From an uncultured Flammeovirgaceae bacterium (lineage in GTDB: Bacteria > Bacteroidota > Bacteroidia > Cytophagales > Cyclobacteriaceae), in the NCBI GenBank assembly GCA_937884755.1, contig CAKZYJ010000102.1:1-32961 (forward strand): DNA of 32,961 bases, in the 5' to 3' direction. Positions 2,655 to 19,009 of this stretch are shown here, piece after piece. Under the pieces are notes generated by a model, which saw nothing but the letters and a program-made list of their open reading frames with translations, did no database searches and was not told the DNA's origin. A program made the translations under genes and the position numbers. Position 1 is the first letter of the stretch. Every line of letters starts with the position of its first letter.

Positions 2655-2756
2655 ACAATAGTACACATCATACAACGATAGTGCACGCTTAGATACAATA
2701 GACCACATATTAAAGACCATAGTTCACACTTATTTTTCTATTGTGAACCAAGTTTG
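2655..2756 (+). promoter_or_regulatory. Promoter P1 with four tandem ACAATAG-type operator repeats
   Basis: Four direct copies of a 14-bp core begin at 2655 (ACAATAGTACACAT), 2675 (ACGATAGTGCACGC), 2695 (ACAATAGACCACAT) and 2716 (ACCATAGTTCACAC), so the spacing is 20, 20 and 21 bp. The TTTG of a -7 element (CAAGTTTG) begins at 2753, 37 bp after the start of the last core. Transcription would start shortly after 2756, giving a leader of about 18 nt before the ATG at 2779. The arrangement matches P2-P7 in this window. An inverted repeat, GTTCACA (2722-2728) and TGTGAAC (2742-2748), overlaps the last site. That these are activator sites is inference; the repeats themselves are seen directly. Confidence 0.8.
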
Positions 2757-2778
2757 TATTAATCAAAAAATACTAACT

Positions 2779-4209
2779 ATGAATTCTATTAAAATATTTT
2801 TTGCGCTGTTTCTAACCCTCCTTATTGGTAGTCGTCATAATGATGAGGCGCAGACGGAATCAAATCATGCTGCTGAAATTGTCATTAGGATCAATGGATT
2901 ATCCGATGTTTGGATCTATCTGAATGGTGTACACCAGAACGTAAAATCGAGAATAGATTCCGCTTACGTTAATACGGAAGGCAAGGCTAACTTCCGCCGT
3001 CAAGTAGGCTATGAGCCAGGGGAGTATACGGTTATCCTACCCGACAGCTCTTTCTTTCAGCTACTACTGGACCAGGATCAATCTTTTAGCCTGGAAACCG
3101 AGTTTCCTGACCTTACTGCCCAAATGCAGGTGGAAGGTAGTCTCGAAAATGAATTGTTATACAAGAGCATCAAATTTTCGATGGATCAGGAAAAACGGTT
3201 TCATAACGAAATCCAACGGCTACAAGAAGAAAATTCCTTACAACCGGAGGATGATCAAACTCAACAGCTGAGACAGCAATATTTTGCTGAACAAACTGAT
3301 TTTTTGGGTAATATTTTCAATCAGTACCCGAATGCCTTGTTTACAAAATATCAAGCGGCCCAGCAGCAACCCGCCGTCCTTCGAAGTATATTATCCAATC
3401 CTACTATTGATAATGCGGAACGACAGTACTTAATGCTGGATCATTTTTGGGACAATGTCGACTTTTCTGATGAAAGGCTACTGCACACGCCCGTCGTCTT
3501 TACTAAGCTTCTGGAGTACTTATATAATTATGTGCCCGACCAAACCCGCGTCAAGATCCAAGCCATTGATCTACTGATGCATAAAGTGCTTCCATTCCCG
3601 AAATATTATCGCTTCTTCGCGGAATGGATAGCGCAAGAGTATCAACCGCCGCAAGATCCATATTTAGATTCGGAAGCCATCTACGTGCACATGGTAGACC
3701 ATTATCTGACCTACGAACGAGCTTTCTGGGCCGATTCCGTACAGGTCTATGCCTGGCAATTCCGTACCGAAGACAAGATCAATAGTTTAATCGGGAAAAA
3801 AGGCACTGACATTAAGGCGAAGGATCCACAAGGTCGTATCCGTGCTCTGTATGATGTACGAGCCCCGTACGTTGCCCTGTTCTTTTATCACGCGGAATGC
3901 GATCACTGTATTGAGGCTACCCCTAAGCTGATGCAACTGTACCATGAATACAAGAATAAAGGCTTGGAAGTATACGCCATTGCTATGGACACCCCGGATA
4001 AGGAATGGAAGAAATTCATAACCGAACAAGGCGTGCAATGGATCAATGTAACCGATCAGGATAACCCAGAAATCCGTTCTAATTACTACATTCCGGGTAC
4101 CCCTTATATATACCTATTGAATCCGAACCGGACAATTATCGGAAAAGATGTACCCATCGAGGCCATCCCACTCCTGATGGAGCAAGACCGGCGGGTGGCC
4201 TCCCAATGA
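2779..4209 (+). CDS. TlpA/ResA-like thioredoxin-domain envelope protein (copy 1)
   Basis: The mature protein has an N-terminal DUF4369-like beta domain (residues about 35-125), a long mostly helical middle resembling the DUF5106 region, and a C-terminal thioredoxin-like domain with the redox motif C374-D-H-C377. A following cis-proline segment, YIPGTPYIYLL, is also present. Such proteins handle disulfides or reduce oxidised targets in the periplasm. I chose the ATG at 2779 over the in-frame GTG at 2743, because that GTG lies upstream of the likely transcription start of promoter P1. The paralogue at 11490-12941 is a lipoprotein candidate. Here the expected lipobox cysteine is replaced (IGSR), so anchoring may differ. 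The gene starts a plus-strand run that continues through the secretin. Confidence 0.85.
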   Translation: MNSIKIFFALFLTLLIGSRHNDEAQTESNHAAEIVIRINGLSDVWIYLNGVHQNVKSRIDSAYVNTEGKANFRRQVGYEPGEYTVILPDSSFFQLLLDQDQSFSLETEFPDLTAQMQVEGSLENELLYKSIKFSMDQEKRFHNEIQRLQEENSLQPEDDQTQQLRQQYFAEQTDFLGNIFNQYPNALFTKYQAAQQQPAVLRSILSNPTIDNAERQYLMLDHFWDNVDFSDERLLHTPVVFTKLLEYLYNYVPDQTRVKIQAIDLLMHKVLPFPKYYRFFAEWIAQEYQPPQDPYLDSEAIYVHMVDHYLTYERAFWADSVQVYAWQFRTEDKINSLIGKKGTDIKAKDPQGRIRALYDVRAPYVALFFYHAECDHCIEATPKLMQLYHEYKNKGLEVYAIAMDTPDKEWKKFITEQGVQWINVTDQDNPEIRSNYYIPGTPYIYLLNPNRTIIGKDVPIEAIPLLMEQDRRVASQ

Positions 4210-11489: not shown

Positions 11490-12941
11490 TTAATTTACTT
11501 GTTCTACGCTAGTAGCTGCCCTCGCTTGCTGATCCATGTACATATATCGGGGAATGTCTTCTACGTTCAGGTTCTTACCGATGATCGTCCTTTCCGAATT
11601 AAGCAGGTAGATATAAGGGGTACCCATGATGTAGTAATTAGAGTACATGTCATAGTTATCCTGATCGGTTACATTGATCATATCTTCCATATTGTATTTG
11701 GTAAGGAATGATTTCCACTCTTCTTCAGGTGCTCCCATGGCTACGGCATATACTTCCAGGCCACTGTCCTTCCATTCCTGATAGACTTGGGCTAGTTTGG
11801 GAGCGGTCTCCTGGCAGTGATCACATTCGGGATGGAAGAAGAAGATAGCCACGTACGGAGATTCAATATCATAGAGGGCGCGGGTTTTTCCTTCAGGATC
11901 TTTCGCTTCAATATTTTGTCCTTGCTTACCAACTAAACTCTTAGCTTTATCTCCGGCGCGTAGTTCCCAGGCATAAAGTTGGGTAGAATCGGCCCAGAAG
12001 GCGCGTTGCTCATTCAGGTAATTATCCACCAGGTGCACATACAATAGTTCTTTGTCTATTTTCGATTCTTTATCGGGATCGTAATCTTCGGCAATCCACA
12101 CCGCAAAAAACCTATAGTATTCCGGGTAATTAGCCACTTTGTTCATCAGAACATCTATGGCCCGAAGCTTAGTCATCGTTTGATTAGGGGAATACTGATA
12201 AAAATAATTGGTTAGCCTATTAAAGATTACGGGGGTACGAAGTAGTCTAGTATCACTGAAGTCTACGTTATCCCAATAATGATCGAGCATTAAGTAGGTT
12301 CTCTCATTTTCATCAAGTGTTGTATCGGCCACAATCCTATTTAGGAATGCCTTAGGTGGTTCCTGTGCACTTTGGTATTTAGTAAATAGAGTATTGGGGT
12401 ACTGCGCGTACAGTTTTGCCATAAAAGCATCCTTTCCATCAAACAGTCTTTGTCGTATCTGATTGACCGCGTTCTCGTCTAATTCCTGATTGCCATTGGC
12501 TTGTAACTGCTGAACCTCAAATTGAAATTGCGCTGACATACCCACGTCGTATTTCAAGCTGGTGTAGAGTACTTCATTTTCCGTGCTTCCCGCTACCTTC
12601 ATATCCTGAATCAAATTCGGATAAGAGGTTTTTAAAGAGAAGACCTGATCGTTATCCAGCAATACTTCCAGAACCGAGCTATCGGGGAGAATAATGCTGT
12701 AGGCGCCGGGTTCATATTTCTCTTGGTGTTTGAAGTAGGCGTTACCTTCAGTATCTAATCTCGCTGAATCTACTCTTGAAATTTTATTGGCATACACATC
12801 ATTCAAATAAATCCAAGTGGAAGACAGACCATTTACTTGAAGGTGGATATTGGTTTCTTCTTTCGTTATTCCGGTCGCTTTATGGGTGCAATAAGAAAAT
12901 AAGAAGAGACCCATTACAAAAATAATAGTTAAGTATTTCAT
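11490..12941 (-). CDS. TlpA/ResA-like thioredoxin-domain lipoprotein (copy 2)
   Basis: The gene encodes 483 residues, closely related over the full length to the protein at 2779-4209. The N-terminus (MKYLTIIFVMGLFLFSYC) ends in a cysteine at residue 18 and is probably lipidated, although Tyr at -1 is not ideal. A DUF4369-like domain (VNGLSSTWIYLNDV to LDNDQVFSL) and a helical DUF5106-like middle follow. The C-terminal thioredoxin domain has C373-D-H-C376 in FFHPECDHCQE and a later GTPYIYLL cis-proline segment. The likely role is thiol redox chemistry in the periplasm. It heads the minus-strand operon reaching at least 7125 and sits under promoter P2, with a leader of roughly 50 nt. Both TlpA-like copies lie directly behind operator arrays. 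Confidence 0.87.
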   Translation of the reverse strand: MKYLTIIFVMGLFLFSYCTHKATGITKEETNIHLQVNGLSSTWIYLNDVYANKISRVDSARLDTEGNAYFKHQEKYEPGAYSIILPDSSVLEVLLDNDQVFSLKTSYPNLIQDMKVAGSTENEVLYTSLKYDVGMSAQFQFEVQQLQANGNQELDENAVNQIRQRLFDGKDAFMAKLYAQYPNTLFTKYQSAQEPPKAFLNRIVADTTLDENERTYLMLDHYWDNVDFSDTRLLRTPVIFNRLTNYFYQYSPNQTMTKLRAIDVLMNKVANYPEYYRFFAVWIAEDYDPDKESKIDKELLYVHLVDNYLNEQRAFWADSTQLYAWELRAGDKAKSLVGKQGQNIEAKDPEGKTRALYDIESPYVAIFFFHPECDHCQETAPKLAQVYQEWKDSGLEVYAVAMGAPEEEWKSFLTKYNMEDMINVTDQDNYDMYSNYYIMGTPYIYLLNSERTIIGKNLNVEDIPRYMYMDQQARAATSVEQVN

Positions 12942-12994
12942 GGTTAAACGGGTTAGGGATTTAGAAATCAGATAGTTTTTGATTTTTGTTTTTT

Positions 12995-13097
12995 CAAAGA
13001 TGCAAGGCCCTCAAGAAACATGTGTGACCTATTGTTTCAATTCGGTGCACTATTGTTTCATTTTTCAGAATACTTGTTCTCAGACTAAGACTATTAC
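12995..13097 (-). promoter_or_regulatory. Promoter P2 with operator array (minus strand)
   Basis: Reading the minus strand, two strong cores begin at 13056 (ACAATAGTGCACCG) and 13035 (ACAATAGGTCACAC). Two degenerate cores lie further upstream at 13097 (GTAATAGTCTTAGT) and 13077 (ACAAGTATTCTGAA). The spacing is 20, 21 and 21 bp, the same as in P3. The -7 element is CATCTTTG, with TTTG starting at 12998, 37 bp after the last core start. The block 12995-13060 is a near-identical inverted copy (63 of 66 bases) of 13543-13608. It drives the operon starting at 12941. Confidence 0.8.
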
Positions 13098-13102
13098 TTT
13101 TG
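13074..13102 (+). promoter_or_regulatory. Candidate constitutive-type promoter facing right
   Basis: TTG at 13074-13076 and TACTTTTG at 13095-13102 are separated by 18 bp, which fits the Bacteroidota -33/-7 promoter (TTTG, 17-23 bp, TAnnTTTG). It overlaps the degenerate distal sites of P2 and points into a region with no credible coding frame but several hairpins. Confidence 0.35.
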
Positions 13103-13108
13103 CGGCTT

Positions 13109-13331
13109 GGAGTATTATACTAAAACCTCTTAGTAAAGTGCTGATAATCAATTTTTTGATATAAGGATTCTGATAAAGAAAATTTTTTGGTGACAGGCTG
13201 CTTGACAGTGAAAAAAATATCAGAGCTTTGTAGCTCTTGATTAAAAAGTTTTATAATTGACCACTTAGGTGAGTACATTTCTACGTACGGAAGTACGTTA
13301 AAATGACTTTCCAGGTGGTTCTCTTTTTTTT
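13109..13331 (+). ncRNA. Candidate small RNA between the divergent promoters P2 and P3
   Basis: This stretch lies between a good promoter match (13074-13102) and a hairpin plus T run. It contains AGAGCT-ttgt-AGCTCT (13222-13237), a perfect stem-loop. It ends with ACCAC (13260-13264)/GTGGT (13315-13319), which encloses the perfect ACGTAC-GGAA-GTACGT stem (13283-13298), followed by a run of eight T (13324-13331). The only open frame here is a TTG-started one without a family resemblance. I do not recognise an RNA family; the call rests on promoter, structure and terminator together. Confidence 0.3.
13260..13331 (+). terminator. Long hairpin with T run
   Basis: An outer ACCAC/GTGGT stem and an inner ACGTAC-GGAA-GTACGT stem are followed by CTC and eight T. 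It would terminate transcription on the plus strand before P3, insulating the AraC promoter from rightward read-through. Confidence 0.45.
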
Positions 13332-13505
13332 AGCCCCCCTCTACTGTTTCCCGTTTCTAATTTTTTCAGCTAGTCTTACGAATTAGTTCAACGTATTCAT
13401 CGCTACCTTATATGTAGGGTTAAGCCTATTAGGGGAATGAATGTGTCACTCTGTCACTTTTATAGTAGCCTGTGTTCTATAGCAAACTAATAATCAAAGC
13501 CAAAG

Positions 13506-13608
13506 ACAATAGTCCAAGTGTGTGAACAATAGTGCACTGAATTGAAACAATAGTGCACCGAATTGAAACAATAGGTCACACATGTTTCTAGGAGGCCTTG
13601 CATCTTTG
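13506..13608 (+). promoter_or_regulatory. Promoter P3 with four operator repeats, upstream of the AraC gene
   Basis: Cores begin at 13506 (ACAATAGTCCAAGT), 13526 (ACAATAGTGCACTG), 13547 (ACAATAGTGCACCG) and 13568 (ACAATAGGTCACAC), with spacing of 20, 21 and 21 bp. The -7 element CATCTTTG has its TTTG at 13605, again 37 bp from the last core start. No -33 TTG is seen at the right distance, as expected if an activator replaces that contact. The likely meaning is autoregulation of the AraC-type regulator that starts at 13664. Confidence 0.85.
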
Positions 13609-13663
13609 CTTATGTAATCAGTAGATAATTCAGGAGATGTAGAACCAAAAAATTATTTTAATC

Positions 13664-14188
13664 ATGAACGTCCAACTTAAACATATTCAACAACAAGCAT
13701 CGGAGCTATCTTCTCTACAGGCAAGTAGAGACTTCTACAATAATGATAGTACCCGAATTGTCAGCATAGATCAGGCTAATCTGACCAATCGAGTGCGTGA
13801 GCCATCAGCAGAAGCCCAGGAACGTCTCGACAAAATGTTCTTCCCCAAATACTTAGGAGTGCACAGCCGCTTTGTGGAACGGATCATTCATCTAATAGAA
13901 AATAACCTAGGTAACGAAAGCTATGGTATACTACAACTATGTGATGATGCGGGAACCAGCCGTACGCAGTTACACAATAAATTGAAGAAGCTCACTGGTT
14001 TCTCTACTTCCATTTTCATCCGCTTGGTGCGGTTGCGTAGAGCTCAATTATTGCTGAGAACAACGGATCTCAGCATTACTCAAATAGCATTTGAAGTGGG
14101 CTTTGATGATGCCCTATATTTTTCTCGGGTGTTCTCTCAAATGTTCCGTCAGTCTCCTAGAGCCTTTCGGAAGCATAGTTTAATCTAA
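13664..14188 (+). CDS. AraC/XylS-family transcriptional regulator, candidate regulator of P1-P7
   Basis: The 174-residue protein has a C-terminal AraC-type DNA-binding domain with two helix-turn-helix units. The first covers about residues 88-112 (LQLCDDAGTSRTQLHNKLKKLTG), the second about 137-165 (SITQIAFEVGFDDALYFSRVF), then the family ending SPRAFRK. The first 65 residues are polar and too short for the usual ligand-binding or sensor domain, so the signal may come through another protein or through its level. In related hybrid two-component systems this domain is joined to a sensor; here it stands alone. The start ATG has the AATCATGA context seen at other genes here. It sits behind four operator repeats (P3) and 16 bp before the VOC gene. 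That it binds the repeats is inference from position and from the match between 21-bp repeats and the two-groove footprint of an AraC monomer. Confidence 0.88.
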   Translation: MNVQLKHIQQQASELSSLQASRDFYNNDSTRIVSIDQANLTNRVREPSAEAQERLDKMFFPKYLGVHSRFVERIIHLIENNLGNESYGILQLCDDAGTSRTQLHNKLKKLTGFSTSIFIRLVRLRRAQLLLRTTDLSITQIAFEVGFDDALYFSRVFSQMFRQSPRAFRKHSLI

Positions 14189-14204
14189 CATTGATAATAA
14201 TAAC

Positions 14205-14738
14205 ATGCTTACAAAAACCAACATCATCGGATTATCGCACATCAACGTTATTGTGAATGACATTGCCGAAGCCACGGACTTCTACTCACGAACCTTGGGC
14301 TTCGGGTTAGCTATTGATAAAGAAGGTAATATAATGGATTACCCTCATTTTCAATTAGAAACCTTTGCTCGCGATGCTGGTATTCTCGATGGGAAAGTGG
14401 ACGTAGATATTCGCTTCCTTCGTCATCCTAAGGTAGGTATCTACCTCGAGATTATGAAATACAACTATCCCGTAGGGGAAAGAGCGTTTACGGTAAAACG
14501 AACCTATGATATGGGGGGCGTACGACATATCGCTCTGGAAGTAGTGGAGATAGAACAGCTCTTTGAGCATATTAAACGCCAGGAAGGGGCCAATCTTATC
14601 AATCCGTCGGAAAAGTACGGCCCCCCCGAGATGCTTACTCCCGTACCCGTTAAGTTTTTCTATTGGATAGATAAGTACGGCGTGCAGTGGGAATTTGAGC
14701 AAGGCCGCCCGGTAGGAGATATGAGGGGCATTGTGTAA
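14205..14738 (+). CDS. VOC-superfamily (glyoxalase/dioxygenase fold) protein
   Basis: The 177-residue protein opens with GLSHINVIVNDIAEATDFYSRTLGF, the classic first beta-alpha-beta module of the vicinal oxygen chelate fold. Four probable metal ligands are in family positions: His12, Glu82 (YLEIMKY), His108 (VRHIALEV) and Glu163 (QWEFEQG). The family includes glyoxalase I, fosfomycin-modifying enzymes, epimerases and extradiol dioxygenases, so the reaction is undetermined. No signal peptide is present and it should be cytoplasmic. It follows the AraC gene by 16 bp and is surely co-transcribed with it from P3, so its metabolite is a candidate substrate or signal for the regulon. Confidence 0.87.
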   Translation: MLTKTNIIGLSHINVIVNDIAEATDFYSRTLGFGLAIDKEGNIMDYPHFQLETFARDAGILDGKVDVDIRFLRHPKVGIYLEIMKYNYPVGERAFTVKRTYDMGGVRHIALEVVEIEQLFEHIKRQEGANLINPSEKYGPPEMLTPVPVKFFYWIDKYGVQWEFEQGRPVGDMRGIV

Positions 14739-14754
14739 CCTTTCGATCATTTTA

Positions 14755-15033
14755 ATGATGACTAATACTAAGCAATATTTTATCTCTATGGACTGGAATC
14801 AAAAACCCAACGTTCTGTGGAAAATGCCTTCCGCATCAGCCGTTGTAGCCGAGAAGTTCTTTGCTAAACTCTTCGAGATATCATACTTGCAATCTTTTAA
14901 AAAAAGGATGATCAATTCCAATTTGGTTGAAATTGAGATTCACCTCAATGCGGATGAATTCATCTCTATTCAAGAATCTGTACTAGAAGTCATGAGCAAA
15001 CATGAAGACCAAGACATAGAAGAGGGGGATTAA
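14755..15033 (+). CDS. Small protein of unknown function, third gene of the AraC operon
   Basis: The most likely start is the ATG at 14755 (or the next codon, 14758), giving about 92 residues; a TTG at 14731 overlapping the VOC stop is less likely. The protein is soluble and ends in an acidic tail (SKHEDQDIEEGD). It has segments such as SASAVVAEKFFAKLFEISY and VEIEIHLNADEF. I see no known domain. It lies 16 bp after the VOC gene and ends before a strong terminator, so it completes the AraC-VOC transcription unit. Confidence 0.6.
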   Translation: MMTNTKQYFISMDWNQKPNVLWKMPSASAVVAEKFFAKLFEISYLQSFKKRMINSNLVEIEIHLNADEFISIQESVLEVMSKHEDQDIEEGD

Positions 15034-15146
15034 GGTGTGTGCTGCCTTAACAGATTTAGCTACTACAAACCCCGCTTCTAAAAAGTCAACCAATGTGTTG
15101 TGAGGGAGCCAATATGAAGAGGTAAACATGCATGGTTGACGATCAG

Positions 15147-15183
15147 ACACCTCATCTTTCCTAAGGATGGGGTGTTTTGTTTA
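15147..15183 (+). terminator. Rho-independent terminator of the AraC operon
   Basis: ACACCTCATC (15147-15156) pairs with GATGGGGTGT (15166-15175), ten pairs with one G-T, around a 9-nt loop, followed by TTTTGTTT. It closes the AraC-VOC-small protein unit. Confidence 0.75.
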
Positions 15184-15438
15184 TCTCATGAGTACACGTT
15201 AGAGAATTACTAGGTATCTACCGTCCTTGGGGGACCAATAGGCTAAGGTCGTTTCCTTATTAGGAAGTTTGCTGACGGGGAGAATTCCTTGCTGACCCAG
15301 TGAGCTTAGCTACTTTCTAATGAATATACCACCAGCTCCTTATAGTTAGCGAAAGCAGTGCAACAGGATTACCAAGTTTTTGTTTCCCTTTAAATACTTC
15401 ATAATACCTGCTTCCCTTGCTTACGATAGTTCCATTAA
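15184..15438. other. Non-coding spacer before P4
   Basis: I see no credible gene, RNA family or repeat here. Scattered short inverted matches and an isolated ACGATAG at 15423, out of phase with the P4 repeats, are the only motifs. Confidence 0.5.
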
Positions 15439-15500
15439 ACAATAGTCCATGTATTTAAGACAATAGTGTATGTTTAGCACCGGGAGGTAGTCCACCTTTG
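15439..15500 (+). promoter_or_regulatory. Promoter P4 with two operator repeats
   Basis: Cores begin at 15439 (ACAATAGTCCATGT) and 15460 (ACAATAGTGTATGT), 21 bp apart. The -7 element is CACCTTTG with TTTG at 15497, 37 bp from the second core start. The downstream gene begins at 15554, leaving a leader of about 50 nt. Confidence 0.8.
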
Positions 15501-15553
15501 TAGTAGGCTGATAGGCCGGGTATATTTTATAAACTATTCAATACATCACTATT

Positions 15554-15859
15554 ATGCATTCATCGATCAAACTTAGCGGTATACTTTTGTTGAGCCTGTT
15601 GTTGAGCCAGGCGGGCTTTGAGCAAACCGAACATCGCTTGGAAGTGAATCTGGTTTTTAGTGGTGAAGCCCAGGATGAGCGTACGGGAGTGGGTATCTAC
15701 CATCTGTCGGGCAAGCGCGTCCGACGACGGGCAAGAAGAGTTCGTGTGAAGAATAGCTTCCGAATTAACCACAGTGACTTGCACTCGGAAGTTTATATGG
15801 TGCAGGTGCAGGTGCAGGACAGGGAGCGACTTAAAACCCTGCGTACAATGAAGAAATAG
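15554..15859 (+). CDS. Miniature secreted protein resembling a free-standing type IX sorting tail
   Basis: The gene encodes 101 residues. Residues 1-22 form a signal peptide. Almost the whole remainder looks like a Por-secretion (type A) C-terminal sorting domain: VGIYHLSGKRV (46-56), then INHSDLHSEVYMVQV (71-85), then a lysine-rich end TLRTMKK. In normal cargo this domain is the last 70-90 residues of a much larger protein; here there is no passenger. It is also very basic, with RRRARRVRVK at 57-66. It could be an escaped or relict tail, a secreted peptide, or a competitor for the sorting machinery; these are inferences. It is the only gene of its unit, driven by P4, followed by a structured region and a terminator. 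Confidence 0.6.
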   Translation: MHSSIKLSGILLLSLLLSQAGFEQTEHRLEVNLVFSGEAQDERTGVGIYHLSGKRVRRRARRVRVKNSFRINHSDLHSEVYMVQVQVQDRERLKTLRTMKK

Positions 15860-15995
15860 GAAGGTCAGGCTACGAAGGGAGGGTAGGTACTCCTTGCTCA
15901 GCTAAGGGCACGGCAAGAGCATAGGATGTATTGGGTGCCGAGACTACCTGAAAAGGTAAGATTGGTGCCCGTCCTTCGCGTAGCCAACCTTCCTT
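15858..15995 (+). other. Structured 3' region with long-range stem
   Basis: AGGAAGGT (15858-15865), GGCTACG (15868-15874) and AAGG (15875-15878) are complementary in order to ACCTTCCT (15987-15994), CGTAGCC (15979-15985) and CCTT (15973-15976). This closes a loop of about 95 nt that itself holds TACCT-GAAA-AGGTA and a GGGCAC/GTGCCC pair. The stem begins at the stop codon of the small gene. It may be an RNA element or a decayed palindromic repeat. Confidence 0.45.
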
Positions 15996-16014
15996 ATCTT
16001 AGTTGTTGACCGAA

Positions 16015-16044
16015 AATCATCAGACAGGTGTCTGGTGGTTTTTA
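16015..16044 (+). terminator. Rho-independent terminator after the structured region
   Basis: AATCATCAGACA (16015-16026) can pair with TGTCTGGTGGTT (16029-16040) including G-T pairs (the innermost pairs open as the loop), followed by a T run. It ends the P4 transcript. Confidence 0.7.
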
Positions 16045-16096
16045 CTTTCAATTACAAATAGTCCTCATTAATTTTATATAGCAGAACCCATTAATC

Positions 16097-16744
16097 ATGA
16101 GATACATGCAGCAAGAAATTATCAGCAGCGACCATACTAGTTCCCAGGTTCTACCAAATGGGGGATTTATTGCTAAAATTGGCGTTTTGGCCATGAGCTC
16201 GACTCCGCTCAATCAACTTCGAGATTTATCTTTAGTCCTAGTCTTGCTTTTCTTGATAGATGGCTGTAGACCGTCAACTGTTTCTGATCCTTCCGGTGAC
16301 GCTACCCAATCCTTTGTAATGAATGGTTTGGTAGAGCAAGTACAGAGGATTACATACACTGATTTACAAAAAATGAACCAGCACAAGTTGGGTGCCATAC
16401 GACTTACGAAAGGGAATGGAGAGGTGTACCTGGAATTGGAGGCGGCTACCGGGATTCTACTGAAAGACATATTGCATTCCGTGGGGGTGAAGGGGCTAAA
16501 CAATAAGAATTACAGTTCCTACTATGTAGTCTGTACTGCTACCGACGGATATAAAACACTGTATTCGTGGAACGAGCTCTTCAATAGCCCACTAGGTGAT
16601 CAAGCCTATTTGATTATGAAGGCCAACGAGCAATCTTTACCCGAATTGGAGGAGTCCATCATGATGGTATCGCTGGCAGATAAGATCACGGGAAAACGCA
16701 ATCTGAGGAAGCTGGAAAGCATTACAGTGATGACTGCTATCTGA
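16097..16744 (+). CDS. Lipoprotein with molybdopterin-oxidoreductase (SUOX)-fold domain
   Basis: From the ATG at 16097 the product has 215 residues; its AATCATGA start context matches other starts in this region. A second ATG at 16193 would give a compact lipoprotein signal (Cys at residue 57 of the long form, in LIDGC). Residues about 75-215 resemble the small oxidoreductase molybdopterin-binding domain: a TYTDLQKM segment, then GILLKDILHSVGVK, then VVCTATDGYKTLYSWNEL and a late LADKITGKRNLRKLESI. Proteins of this size lack much of the sulfite oxidase core, so catalysis is uncertain; it may bind a ligand instead. It is predicted to be in the periplasm. It sits between the P4 terminator and P5, and no operator repeat lies in register upstream. 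Confidence 0.7.
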   Translation: MRYMQQEIISSDHTSSQVLPNGGFIAKIGVLAMSSTPLNQLRDLSLVLVLLFLIDGCRPSTVSDPSGDATQSFVMNGLVEQVQRITYTDLQKMNQHKLGAIRLTKGNGEVYLELEAATGILLKDILHSVGVKGLNNKNYSSYYVVCTATDGYKTLYSWNELFNSPLGDQAYLIMKANEQSLPELEESIMMVSLADKITGKRNLRKLESITVMTAI

Positions 16745-16792
16745 GTTTTGCCACAATAGAAGTGAAAGTATTTGTGTGTTTTCGCACAGCGA

Positions 16793-16854
16793 ACAATAGT
16801 CCATATTTTCAAGACAATAGTGCATGTTGTTCATGATTAAATGTAGCATCTTTA
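16793..16854 (+). promoter_or_regulatory. Promoter P5 with operator repeats
   Basis: Cores begin at 16793 (ACAATAGTCCATAT) and 16814 (ACAATAGTGCATGT), 21 bp apart. The -7 element is CATCTTTA, its TTTA at 16851, 37 bp from the last core start. A third, weaker ACAATAG begins at 16753, exactly 40 bp before the first core, so an ancestral four-site array with one lost site is likely. Confidence 0.78.
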
Positions 16855-16874
16855 AATCATAAAACTTAGTAATC

Positions 16875-17108
16875 ATGAATGACCCAAAAGCACCCCCATT
16901 ACTACAAGAAGAGACATCTAAGGTTGATGTTGGCTCTTTATTAGAAAACAATGATTATGCTCCCTATGGCTTTTGCGATCCCTTTCTGGGGTTTGTATAC
17001 TTCCCGGTTGAGCACTATGATGAGCTAGTTTCGGACATGAAGCAGGGTGGAATTAGCTTGATTGGCTGGTTGAAGAAGCGTTATAAATCATTCTTAGGTA
17101 AAAAATAA
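16875..17108 (+). CDS. Small protein of unknown function under P5
   Basis: The 77-residue product starts at an ATG in the AATCATGA context, about 20 nt after the P5 -7 element. It has no signal peptide. The first 20 residues are polar (PKAPPLLQEETSK), followed by an aromatic-rich core (NNDYAPYGFCDPFLGFVYFP) and a basic amphipathic C-terminus ending WLKKRYKSFLGKK. I do not recognise it. It is a single-gene transcript, closed by a strong terminator at 17160. A dedicated regulated promoter and terminator make it a credible gene in spite of its size. Confidence 0.65.
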   Translation: MNDPKAPPLLQEETSKVDVGSLLENNDYAPYGFCDPFLGFVYFPVEHYDELVSDMKQGGISLIGWLKKRYKSFLGKK

Positions 17109-17159
17109 TTCTAAGCGAATAGATAGATACTATGTGGTAATAATTAGGTAGAACTGTAC

Positions 17160-17189
17160 AAGACCCGCTTTGGTGGGTCTTTGTATTTT
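17160..17189 (+). terminator. Rho-independent terminator of the P5 unit
   Basis: AAGACCC (17160-17166) pairs with GGGTCTT (17175-17181) around an 8-nt loop, followed by a T-rich run. Confidence 0.75.
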
Positions 17190-17199
17190 GTCTCTACTA

Positions 17200-18029
17200 G
17201 CGCTTTAGAAGCAATAAAATGGTAGAAAGGTTCAGCCGGGCAATTAGCAGATCCGTAGAAAATTTGCAGCTGGGGCAACTTGGAGTAGGTGCTTTCGATT
17301 CCGCTGACTTTGTGGCTAATCGGCTGGTAGGTGAGAAGGGGACTAAGAAGCCGGAATTTATCTTTCCGGTGGCTCAGCAATACTCCGGTCGGAAGGCTAT
17401 TCTAGGTTCCTTTGATGCGGACGCTACTATACTTAGCGGTGATAATATGCTGTTCAGCGGTGAGTATCCGGGCCACTAGCAACGAAAACGGGAAAACGCT
17501 GGGGCAGATTTAGCCGTCTTTCTCGCCGGTAGCGTTGGTAGTCATGAGCCAGTATCCCCCGGCGAGAAGTTTGACAAGCTCAGGTTTATCGGCGAAGCTC
17601 TGGTCGATAGCGTACTGAAGTATAAGAATATGATCTCTTTGCGTGATAGTATCACCCTGGCCTCGGTAAACCGGGAAATGGATTTACCGGACTTTCATGT
17701 GCGGGTAAACGATGGTATTCGCTCGTGCCGACTATCAGCCAAAAACTGTTTCCGCCCATTGGTAAGGTCTACCTACAGGCCGCCTGTGTTGGGAACCTGA
17801 TCTGAGCCACCATCCCTTGCGATTTTAGCGGTGAAACGGTCATCGTGCTTAAAAATGCTATATACAAAAAAGCTACCGGGCTTTGGTCACCAGCTTCAAC
17901 ACCGAGGCTGTTGTGGCCAATGCGTTGGATGATCATCTCAGCCTGATTGATTTAGCTACCTGGGAAGTGCGACCCTTGGAGAGAGTAGACCGGCTCAACG
18001 GATTTGGGTTTATTCCGGTCGGAAGGTAA
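17200..18029 (+). pseudogene. Decayed neutral/alkaline ceramidase-like gene fused to a beta-propeller-like tail
   Basis: Translated segments match the C-terminal part of neutral/alkaline non-lysosomal ceramidase-like hydrolases: VANRLVGEKGTKKPEF, AILGSFDADATILSGDN, FSGEYPGH, DLAVFLAGSVGSHEPVSPGE, SITLASVNREMDLPDF and PCDFSGETVIV. Damage is clear. A TAG at 17476 stands where W is expected after YPGH, a frameshift lies near 17740, a TGA replaces another likely W in NLIWAT, and a further frameshift lies near 17880. The N-terminal half with the catalytic residues is absent. After the ceramidase segment ALVTSFN the same frame continues into VVANALDDHLSLIDLATWEV, which resembles a YVTN-type propeller blade, and ends at a TAA (18027-18029). 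No intact copy is in the window. Confidence 0.7.
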
Positions 18030-18127
18030 TTAAATCAATCTTTTCCAAAGCTTTTAGAGACAGAACAAAGTTATAGTGCGGTAGAATTACCTAAGCATCT
18101 TCCCAACTTTCTCCTAGCCATGAACCG

Positions 18128-19009
18128 TTAGGTGACTGCCTTTGAACGATAGGCAGCTTTACTTTTTCTTAAACCCCAGTAAATAACTACTCCTCCGGTG
18201 AGAAACATCAGTAGGCTATAGATAGCCGGGGTGATGGCGTAGGCATTGTTCTCTAATAGCACCACCGCAATCGTAATGGCTAATGTCCCATTTTGTATGC
18301 CGGACTCAATTGCAATGGATAAGGCACTTTTATCCGTGACATTTATGAGTTTGGCTGAATAATAGCCTACCAACATGGTGATAATATTTAAGCATAACGC
18401 TATGATACCTGCCTGTTGAAAATACGATAGTACGTTGGCCCGTTCTTTGACGATCAGCCCGGCGATCACTAACATCATCACCACTCCAGAAGCTTTTCGC
18501 ACCGGGTTCCCCATTTTGAGCGCAAAACCCGGACGATAACGCCTGATCAGCATTCCAATACTGATGGGAATAACGATGATGACCAGAATTTGTAGGATCG
18601 TCTCTAGCACATTCAATTGAATCATTTGCCCCTGCTCCAAGAAGTGGATGAGGGCGATGTTGACTATAAAGGGAATCGTGATAATGGTGATCAAGCTACT
18701 CAAGGCGGTCAGGGTGACCGATAAGGCAGTATTGCCCTTGGCCAGATGCGCTATCAAATTGGAAGTAGGCCCGCCGGGACAAGCCGCTAAAATCATCAAA
18801 CCGATGGCAATCTCTGGTTGAATCGGAAAGGAAACCGCTAGCGCAAAGCCAATGAGAGGTAATAAGATGATCTGGTTGGTGAGCCCTACCAGAATAGCTT
18901 TGGGATGACGAAAGATTCGTTGGAAGTCGGCAGCAACCAGCGATAATCCCATCCCTAACATGATGATAATCAGGGCGGCGGCTAAAATGATGGTTGAAAG
19001 TTGATCCAT
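18128..19009 (-). CDS. BASS-family (bile acid:Na+ symporter type) transporter
   Basis: The 293-residue inner-membrane protein has about nine to ten hydrophobic segments. The family signature ILAACPGGPTSNLIAHLAKGN (CPGGPTSN at 77-84) and the early GMGLSL block are present. Later segments such as ESGIQNGTLAITIA carry the conserved E-xGxQN motif of the second crossover helix. Family members import organic anions (bile acids, pyruvate, pantoate, glucosinolate-like compounds) with Na+. It follows the SSS symporter gene by 20 bp in a three-gene minus-strand operon. The pairing of SSS and BASS transporters, both Na+-linked, suggests uptake of related organic acids. No terminator is evident after it. 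Confidence 0.9.
   Translation of the reverse strand: MDQLSTIILAAALIIIMLGMGLSLVAADFQRIFRHPKAILVGLTNQIILLPLIGFALAVSFPIQPEIAIGLMILAACPGGPTSNLIAHLAKGNTALSVTLTALSSLITIITIPFIVNIALIHFLEQGQMIQLNVLETILQILVIIVIPISIGMLIRRYRPGFALKMGNPVRKASGVVMMLVIAGLIVKERANVLSYFQQAGIIALCLNIITMLVGYYSAKLINVTDKSALSIAIESGIQNGTLAITIAVVLLENNAYAITPAIYSLLMFLTGGVVIYWGLRKSKAAYRSKAVT

Follow-up and report, generated by a model that had tools for sequence, protein, structure and literature searches.

The mini-gene on the plus strand of the window (the whole analyzed stretch of DNA, 32,961 nucleotides) very probably descends from a large type IX cargo gene that lost its body and of which the 3' end is left. Two lines of evidence argue for this origin, namely, the homology of its tail to cargo tails and the homologous non-coding DNA that follows both the mini-gene and a cargo gene of the same genome. 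The reading that we prefer for the present-day gene, to which we give about an even chance, is that it encodes an expressed, lineage-specific, tail-only working protein. The likeness of the tail and of the untranslated hairpin behind it to the end of a large cargo gene was overlooked in the earlier note on this DNA; since both elements show this likeness, the layout of the mini-gene is probably the result of a cargo body having been lost or replaced.

The mini-gene and its predicted product

The open reading frame (ORF) covers exactly positions 15554 to 15859 of the window and runs from ATG to TAG over 101 codons; the features in and around it are collected in Table 1. The 101-residue protein was described earlier as highly basic, and it is, with a pI of 10.88 and 19 lysine and arginine residues versus 10 aspartate and glutamate residues. 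Two related cargo tails of the same genome have pIs of 5.64 and 6.11. The hydrophobic core of its N terminus (GILLLSLLLS) has a mean hydropathy of 2.53 over 10 residues and falls within the range of 2.50 to 2.96 that was obtained for the cores of six secreted proteins used for comparison (five from the same genome and one from a sister species). We take the cleavage site to be SQA/G (residues 18 to 21). Together, the ORF, the hydrophobic core, and the profile match of the tail bear out the layout first proposed for this protein, a signal peptide joined almost directly to a tail-like stretch without cargo.

The coding score of the ORF was higher than that of 1,997 of 2,000 shuffled sequences and well above those of the other two frames of its own strand. 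Of 62 windows taken from real genes, only 1 scored lower, and nearly the same score was obtained on the opposite strand for the codon-aligned frame (-0.058 versus -0.038). The codon score is weak support for coding.

Table 1. Features of the mini-gene and its surroundings (positions in the window)
Feature	Position	Strand	Details and basis
AraC-family regulator, 174 amino acids	13664..14188	+	PF12833, 76.9 bits
Operator (predicted), direct repeat ACAATAGT-N13-ACAATAGT, 21-base period	15439..15467	+	Repeat family D1 in the window; genome pattern count
Promoter-like elements	15497..15528	+	TTTG (15497-15500) and TATATTTT (15521-15528)
Signal-peptide-like start	15554..15613	+	Residues 1-20 (MHSSIKLSGILLLSLLLSQA); hydropathy; cleavage point predicted
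Degenerate type IX type A tail	15644..15856	+	Residues 31-101; first strand (YPNP) missing; profile matches and alignment
Long RNA hairpin	15859..15996	+	Directly after the stop codon; in common with the C145 cargo gene
Intrinsic terminator	16012..16043	+	14-pair stem and T-rich tail; counterpart after the C145 cargo gene

Relationship to large cargo proteins

The genome from which the window derives comprises 8.35 Mb in 528 contigs. When it was searched with the mini-protein at E values up to 10, the only other matches were the ends of two large proteins, a 1,227-residue protein encoded on contig C43 and a protein on contig C145 that is truncated at the contig end and comprises at least 668 residues. 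The mini-protein is 43% identical to both tails (E 1.3e-7 and 1.8e-7, respectively). A sister species (uncultured Flammeovirgaceae MAG, CAKZYA01) has two homologues among its cargo proteins, 982 and 983 residues long, and over the cargo tails of both genomes the identity to the mini-protein amounts to 42 to 45%. With all of these proteins the mini-protein has a homologous tail and a similar linker in common, but it has 101 residues, compared with 982 to 1,227 (at least 668 for the C145 protein); only with the C145 cargo gene does it also share the hairpin and the terminator at the 3' end.

The residues that precede the tail resemble the linkers of the cargo proteins, with 16, 34, and 103 of 2,000 shuffles as good for three linkers, which lends modest statistical support to this likeness. 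Descent of the signal peptide from the cargo signal peptide was also considered and found no support (747 of 2,000 shuffles as good). Synonymous sites are saturated in the comparison with the C145 gene (pS of 0.84), suggesting an ancient split between the tail and the known cargo lineages. A full-length copy bearing the tail of the mini-gene was not found in the assembly of its own genome.

A degenerate type A sorting domain

Residues 31 to 92 match positions 10 to 69 of the Por_Secre_tail profile (PF18962) with an E value of 1.3e-4 and 22.7 bits (cut-off, 27), and TIGR04183 (NCBIfam) gave 16.8 bits (cut-off, 23); the stretch is tail-like yet below the threshold for both the Pfam and the NCBIfam model. 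The first strand is absent, since profile positions 1 to 9 are unmatched and the nine columns of the YPNP strand are missing in the alignment with the four cargo tails, and the glycine of the LPxGxY strand is lost. The resemblance to the type A sorting domain of these models consists of a detectable match and of closest relatives that are cargo tails of the family, whereas the scores below the cut-offs, the missing strand and glycine, the missing cargo, and the pI near 11 set the mini-protein apart.

The layout IY-x-LSGK ... L-x(3)-VY ... C-terminal KK is kept. By eye, IYHLSGKRV aligns with I694 to V702 of RgpB, and RTMKK aligns with the C-terminal motif. In the available text of PMC11285876, the L-beta3-beta4 and C-terminal motifs are surface motifs reported to be relevant to the type IX machinery of P. 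gingivalis. The same text holds an intact, well-folded tail to be needed and reports a lack of conservation of the L-beta3-beta4 motif in the tail of Tannerella mirolase (PMC11285876), so that the two motifs alone prove little. It also quotes earlier work according to which the signal of HBP35 sits in the last 22 residues (PMC11285876).

Type A sorting domains have an Ig-like 3+4 beta-sandwich, and the earlier note had proposed structure prediction as a check; an Ig-like sandwich was predicted when related tails were supplied, but not without them. With 19 such tails in the alignment, a beta-sandwich was obtained, with pLDDT block means of 64 to 89 over residues 31 to 100, whereas the single-sequence model of residues 22 to 101 failed (mean pLDDT of 48). 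The sandwich fits type IX tails (mirolase 8qb1, Z of 9.2 with an rmsd of 2.3 over 79 aligned residues; PorU 6za2, Z of 8.7) and also the DUF3244 structures 3d33 and 4g5a (Z of 8.8 and 8.9, respectively). Unrelated Ig and Fn3 domains tie with type IX tails in this comparison, and many Ig-like domains of complement proteins and glycosidases rank level with or above them. Because Ig-like domains rank as high, and because Foldseek returned no match at an E value of 0.001 for the model, the fold match alone proves nothing. A profile of five tails, searched against structure chains at E values up to 1, found seven chains, of which the best was 5jvk, an uncharacterized protein (E 0.00021), followed by the type IX tail structures 8glj (E 0.0048) and 8qb1 (E 0.0061).

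A hairpin and a terminator shared with a cargo gene

The similarity to the C145 cargo gene continues beyond the stop codon. Positions 15849 to 16048, which begin with the final bases of the ORF and take in the terminator, align over 203 bases with 73% identity to the DNA that follows that gene, and about 190 untranslated bases, hairpin and terminator included, lie within this stretch (the copy of the hairpin at the C145 locus is located at L016 3141-3279, minus strand). Different DNA is present 3' of the other three cargo genes, as judged partly by eye. The terminator with which the mini-gene had been credited is in place and has its counterpart 3' of the C145 cargo gene; in the region from 12900 to 18200, eight terminator-like sites were found, with 4.4 expected from shuffles.

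The 138 bases after the stop codon fold strongly (z of -5.5), and their C145 copy has a z of -2.9. Of the 51 base pairs predicted from the mini-gene copy, 43 can also be formed by the C145 sequence; when the 37 substitutions were placed at random, a mean of 36.0 pairs was left, and 9 of 5,000 trials did as well. In the reverse direction, 37 of 44 pairs predicted from the C145 copy are kept (248 of 5,000 random placements as good). Changes on both sides of a pair are not above chance, since 703 and 790 of 5,000 placements had as many. These comparisons point to probable conservation of the hairpin, limited to two copies. A covariance model of it recovered its two source copies and nothing else from four genomes of the genus. 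With Rfam, no known RNA family was found over the window at gathering thresholds, and a search of positions 15030 to 16100 at E values up to 5 gave only two matches, both far below the thresholds.

Constraint on the tail and its distribution

Over 68 aligned codons, the mini-gene differs from the cargo consensus at 23 first, 27 second, and 42 third codon positions (Fisher P value of 0.00098). Its residue identity to the consensus is 0.456, compared with a maximum of 0.426 in 2,000 neutral simulations, and its tail frame contains no stop codon, as was the case in 4% of the simulations; when only the last quarter of the divergence was made neutral (300 runs), 16% of the runs were free of stops and 6% reached the observed identity. 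These simulations place all change on one branch and take the consensus as the ancestor, both of which are simplifications. The pattern of divergence points to protein-level constraint on the tail for most of its separate history, and the constrained form may have been a short or a full-length protein. The earlier view that the mini-gene is not simple debris draws support from this pattern, with third positions changed most and no stop acquired.

Orthologues of the same short length, which the earlier note had proposed to look for, were not found: there was no acceptable match among 389 other genomes of the family, among 389 other genomes of the order (the two draws overlap), or in three sister species. 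The sole match outside the genus (genome G333) is 35% identical in a frame of 58 residues with two stops, and it looks like chance. A mobile or viral origin found no support: no relative is encoded in the viral contigs searched (77 stretches fit the search pattern, and none was confirmed), and plasmids gave no match at E values up to 0.01.

Promoter, operator, and candidate regulator

The operator-bearing promoter that had been placed upstream of the mini-gene is backed by the recurrence of its direct repeat. With at most one mismatch, the pattern occurs at 10 sites in the genome, compared with none for the reversed control. Six of these sites are in the window (at 13028, 13526, 13547, 15439, 16793, and 21041), and the repeat is also present on contigs C11, C56, and C194. 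Among 117 other genomes of the family, there were 37 matches in 26 genomes versus 72 for the control, i.e., the pattern is not commoner there than chance, and a cluster of sites is seen only in the genome of the window; one other genome, G126, carries one exact site and four with one mismatch, with no match for the control. We take the TTTG and TATATTTT elements to be a promoter of the Bacteroidota type. A scan for sigma-70-type promoters was uninformative (7 found versus 10.0 expected in shuffles).

Over 76 bases, the block from 15435 to 15509 shares 78% identity with the DNA upstream of a response-regulator-like gene (assigned by eye) on C194, and its identity to contig C11 is 74%. Counted by hand, the ATG lies 61 bases downstream of a common CACC here and 58 bases downstream of it on C194. 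The same operator repeat is found twice upstream of the AraC-type gene of the window (13526 and 13547), and a paralogue of this gene on C11 likewise has the repeat upstream. The C11 block is collinear: it contains the AraC-family gene, which is 71% identical at the DNA level over 633 bases, a terminator region that is likewise shared, and the promoter, just after which the contig ends. Since the same repeat precedes both genes, the product of the AraC-type gene is likely the regulator that acts at the predicted operator of the mini-gene. A 21-base period would suit AraC- or LytTR-type binding.

Some further occurrences of the repeat were observed. On C56, a terminator-like stretch resembling window positions 17140 to 17187 comes no more than about 170 bases after the repeat; no ORF of 60 codons or more lies between the two on that strand, which might possibly indicate a small RNA. 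A 108-base inverted repeat (82%; 12995-13102 and 13501-13608), the arms of which contain operator repeats, is located between the divergent thioredoxin-domain and AraC-type genes. Two similar thioredoxin-like genes (DUF4369, DUF5106, and AhpC-TSA) lie on opposite strands at 2743-4209 and 11490-12941, each with an operator-type repeat nearby, and the repeat before 2743 is only 70% like the reference copy.

Other short tail proteins and known systems

The genome contains 76 tail matches, the mini-gene included, and PorV-family genes that score over the cut-off, which suggests that a system able to read the tail of the mini-protein is probably present. One PorV-family match (G000 contig C113, 53181-54259) is split over two reading frames by a frameshift or an assembly error. 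Seventeen of the 76 tail matches, mostly ones with short open frames, were inspected: five frames run off the contig end, four tails are preceded by a stop that closes a long open frame upstream, and eight read as self-contained, three of which (C348, C174, and C496) also have open stretches upstream in another frame. The upstream frame of the four tails behind a stop is the same frame for C237 and another frame for C357, C399, and C447b (L062, L063, L066, and L070); we read these four as broken cargo genes or assembly errors.

The proteins on C348 (127 residues, 40.3 bits), C463 (123 residues), and C174 (about 127 residues, with an uncertain start) consist of a signal-peptide-like start, a tail, and little more. 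C118 and C175 (L074 and L075) encode short secreted proteins with two tail-like matches each; C118, the one of the two that was scanned, matches DUF3244 with 55 bits (cut-off, 25). The C463 protein has matches at E values up to 0.001 in 27 of 148 genomes of the family, its own included, most of them in longer frames, and frames of similar length without stops are present in G046 (125 residues) and G140 (123 residues). The cargo-less layout is thus met again in the same genome, in short signal-peptide-plus-tail proteins and in a DUF3244 protein. DUF3244 proteins (PF11589; 3d33, 3sd2, and 4g5a) and the C348, C463, and C174 proteins resemble the mini-protein in having a signal-peptide-like start, a tail-like Ig domain, and little else, but none of the latter three was recovered by the search of the genome with the mini-protein at E values up to 10, and PF11589 gave no match to the mini-protein at E values up to 1. 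What sets the mini-gene apart is that it unites descent from a cargo tail, a missing first strand, a strongly basic charge, and control by an operator.

A precedent for a modulating role is PorA of P. gingivalis, which the available text of PMC7712824 describes as a tail-bearing type IX protein with an effect on how the system is regulated and with a tail that binds PorV. The same text gives PorA an N-terminal domain of its own and calls PorA conserved (PMC7712824), whereas a regulatory role of the mini-protein would be hypothetical. Among the literature matches listed, no title or abstract opening was recognized as dealing with tail-only type IX proteins.

Origin and possible fates of the mini-gene

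The course of events that we propose would begin with a cargo gene that lost its body, leaving its 3' end (linker, tail, untranslated hairpin, and terminator), which now would stand directly behind a short signal-peptide start and an operator promoter of the type found next to the AraC gene. The mini-protein would be made on the signal of the regulator, be exported by Sec, and fold as a tail that does without the first strand and has counterparts of the two type IX surface motifs. It might then be picked up by the translocon and PorV as a cargo-free substrate and, being small and basic, would end up as a protein of the cell surface or of the medium. Two further roles are quite improbable in our estimate: as an operator-controlled type IX signal free of cargo, it could occupy PorV or the translocon and so throttle or prime secretion while its regulator is active, or a basic patch could anchor it to anionic lipopolysaccharide on the cell surface.

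The searches give no sign that the gene has been conserved in its short form, as no orthologue turned up in the sister species or in the family and order genomes covered. The mini-gene may instead be a recent remnant, a reading that we consider somewhat less probable than a working protein, although a serious candidate: a diverged cargo gene would have lost its body by deletion, and an open but useless tail frame would persist beside a promoter that perhaps still works. The 3' untranslated region and terminator in common with a cargo gene would fit such decay, as would the missing orthologues (three sister species, 389 family and 389 order genomes), the lost first strand and conserved glycine, the low coding score, and the 4 of 17 inspected tails of the genome that lie behind a stop, be they broken cargo genes or assembly errors. 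A tail frame that is open, free of stops, and strongly biased toward third-position changes is harder to reconcile with it, and so are the spacing of start codon and promoter, which is nearly that of another transcription unit (C194), and the lack of a full-length copy with this tail in the assembly.

Two other explanations are less probable still. The first is that the gene encodes a soluble periplasmic protein, small and Ig-like in the manner of DUF3244, that is no type IX substrate. This would suit the presence in the same genome of short proteins that combine a signal peptide with tail-like domains (C463, C118, and C175), and also the DUF3244 structures, the fit of which to the model is about that of type IX tails (Z of 8.8 and 8.9 versus 9.2 and 8.7), but the DUF3244 model finds nothing in the mini-protein at the permissive limit used (E up to 1), and its closest sequence relatives are cargo tails; we regard this as very unlikely. 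About as unlikely is the reading in which the product under conservation is the structured RNA that follows the stop codon (hairpin and terminator), with the reading frame incidental. Although both copies fold well (z of -5.5 and -2.9) and pairs are kept between copies that differ at about a quarter of their positions, both-side changes do not exceed chance, the only two copies in four genomes of the genus each lie directly after a tail frame, and the codon-position bias indicates that this frame was translated.

If the mini-gene is a remnant, it represents ordinary gene decay with a well-preserved 3' end. If, as we prefer, it encodes a working protein, a secretion tail would have been cut loose from its cargo and put under separate control, and the mini-gene would be a natural test of how the type IX machinery handles a signal with nothing attached to it.
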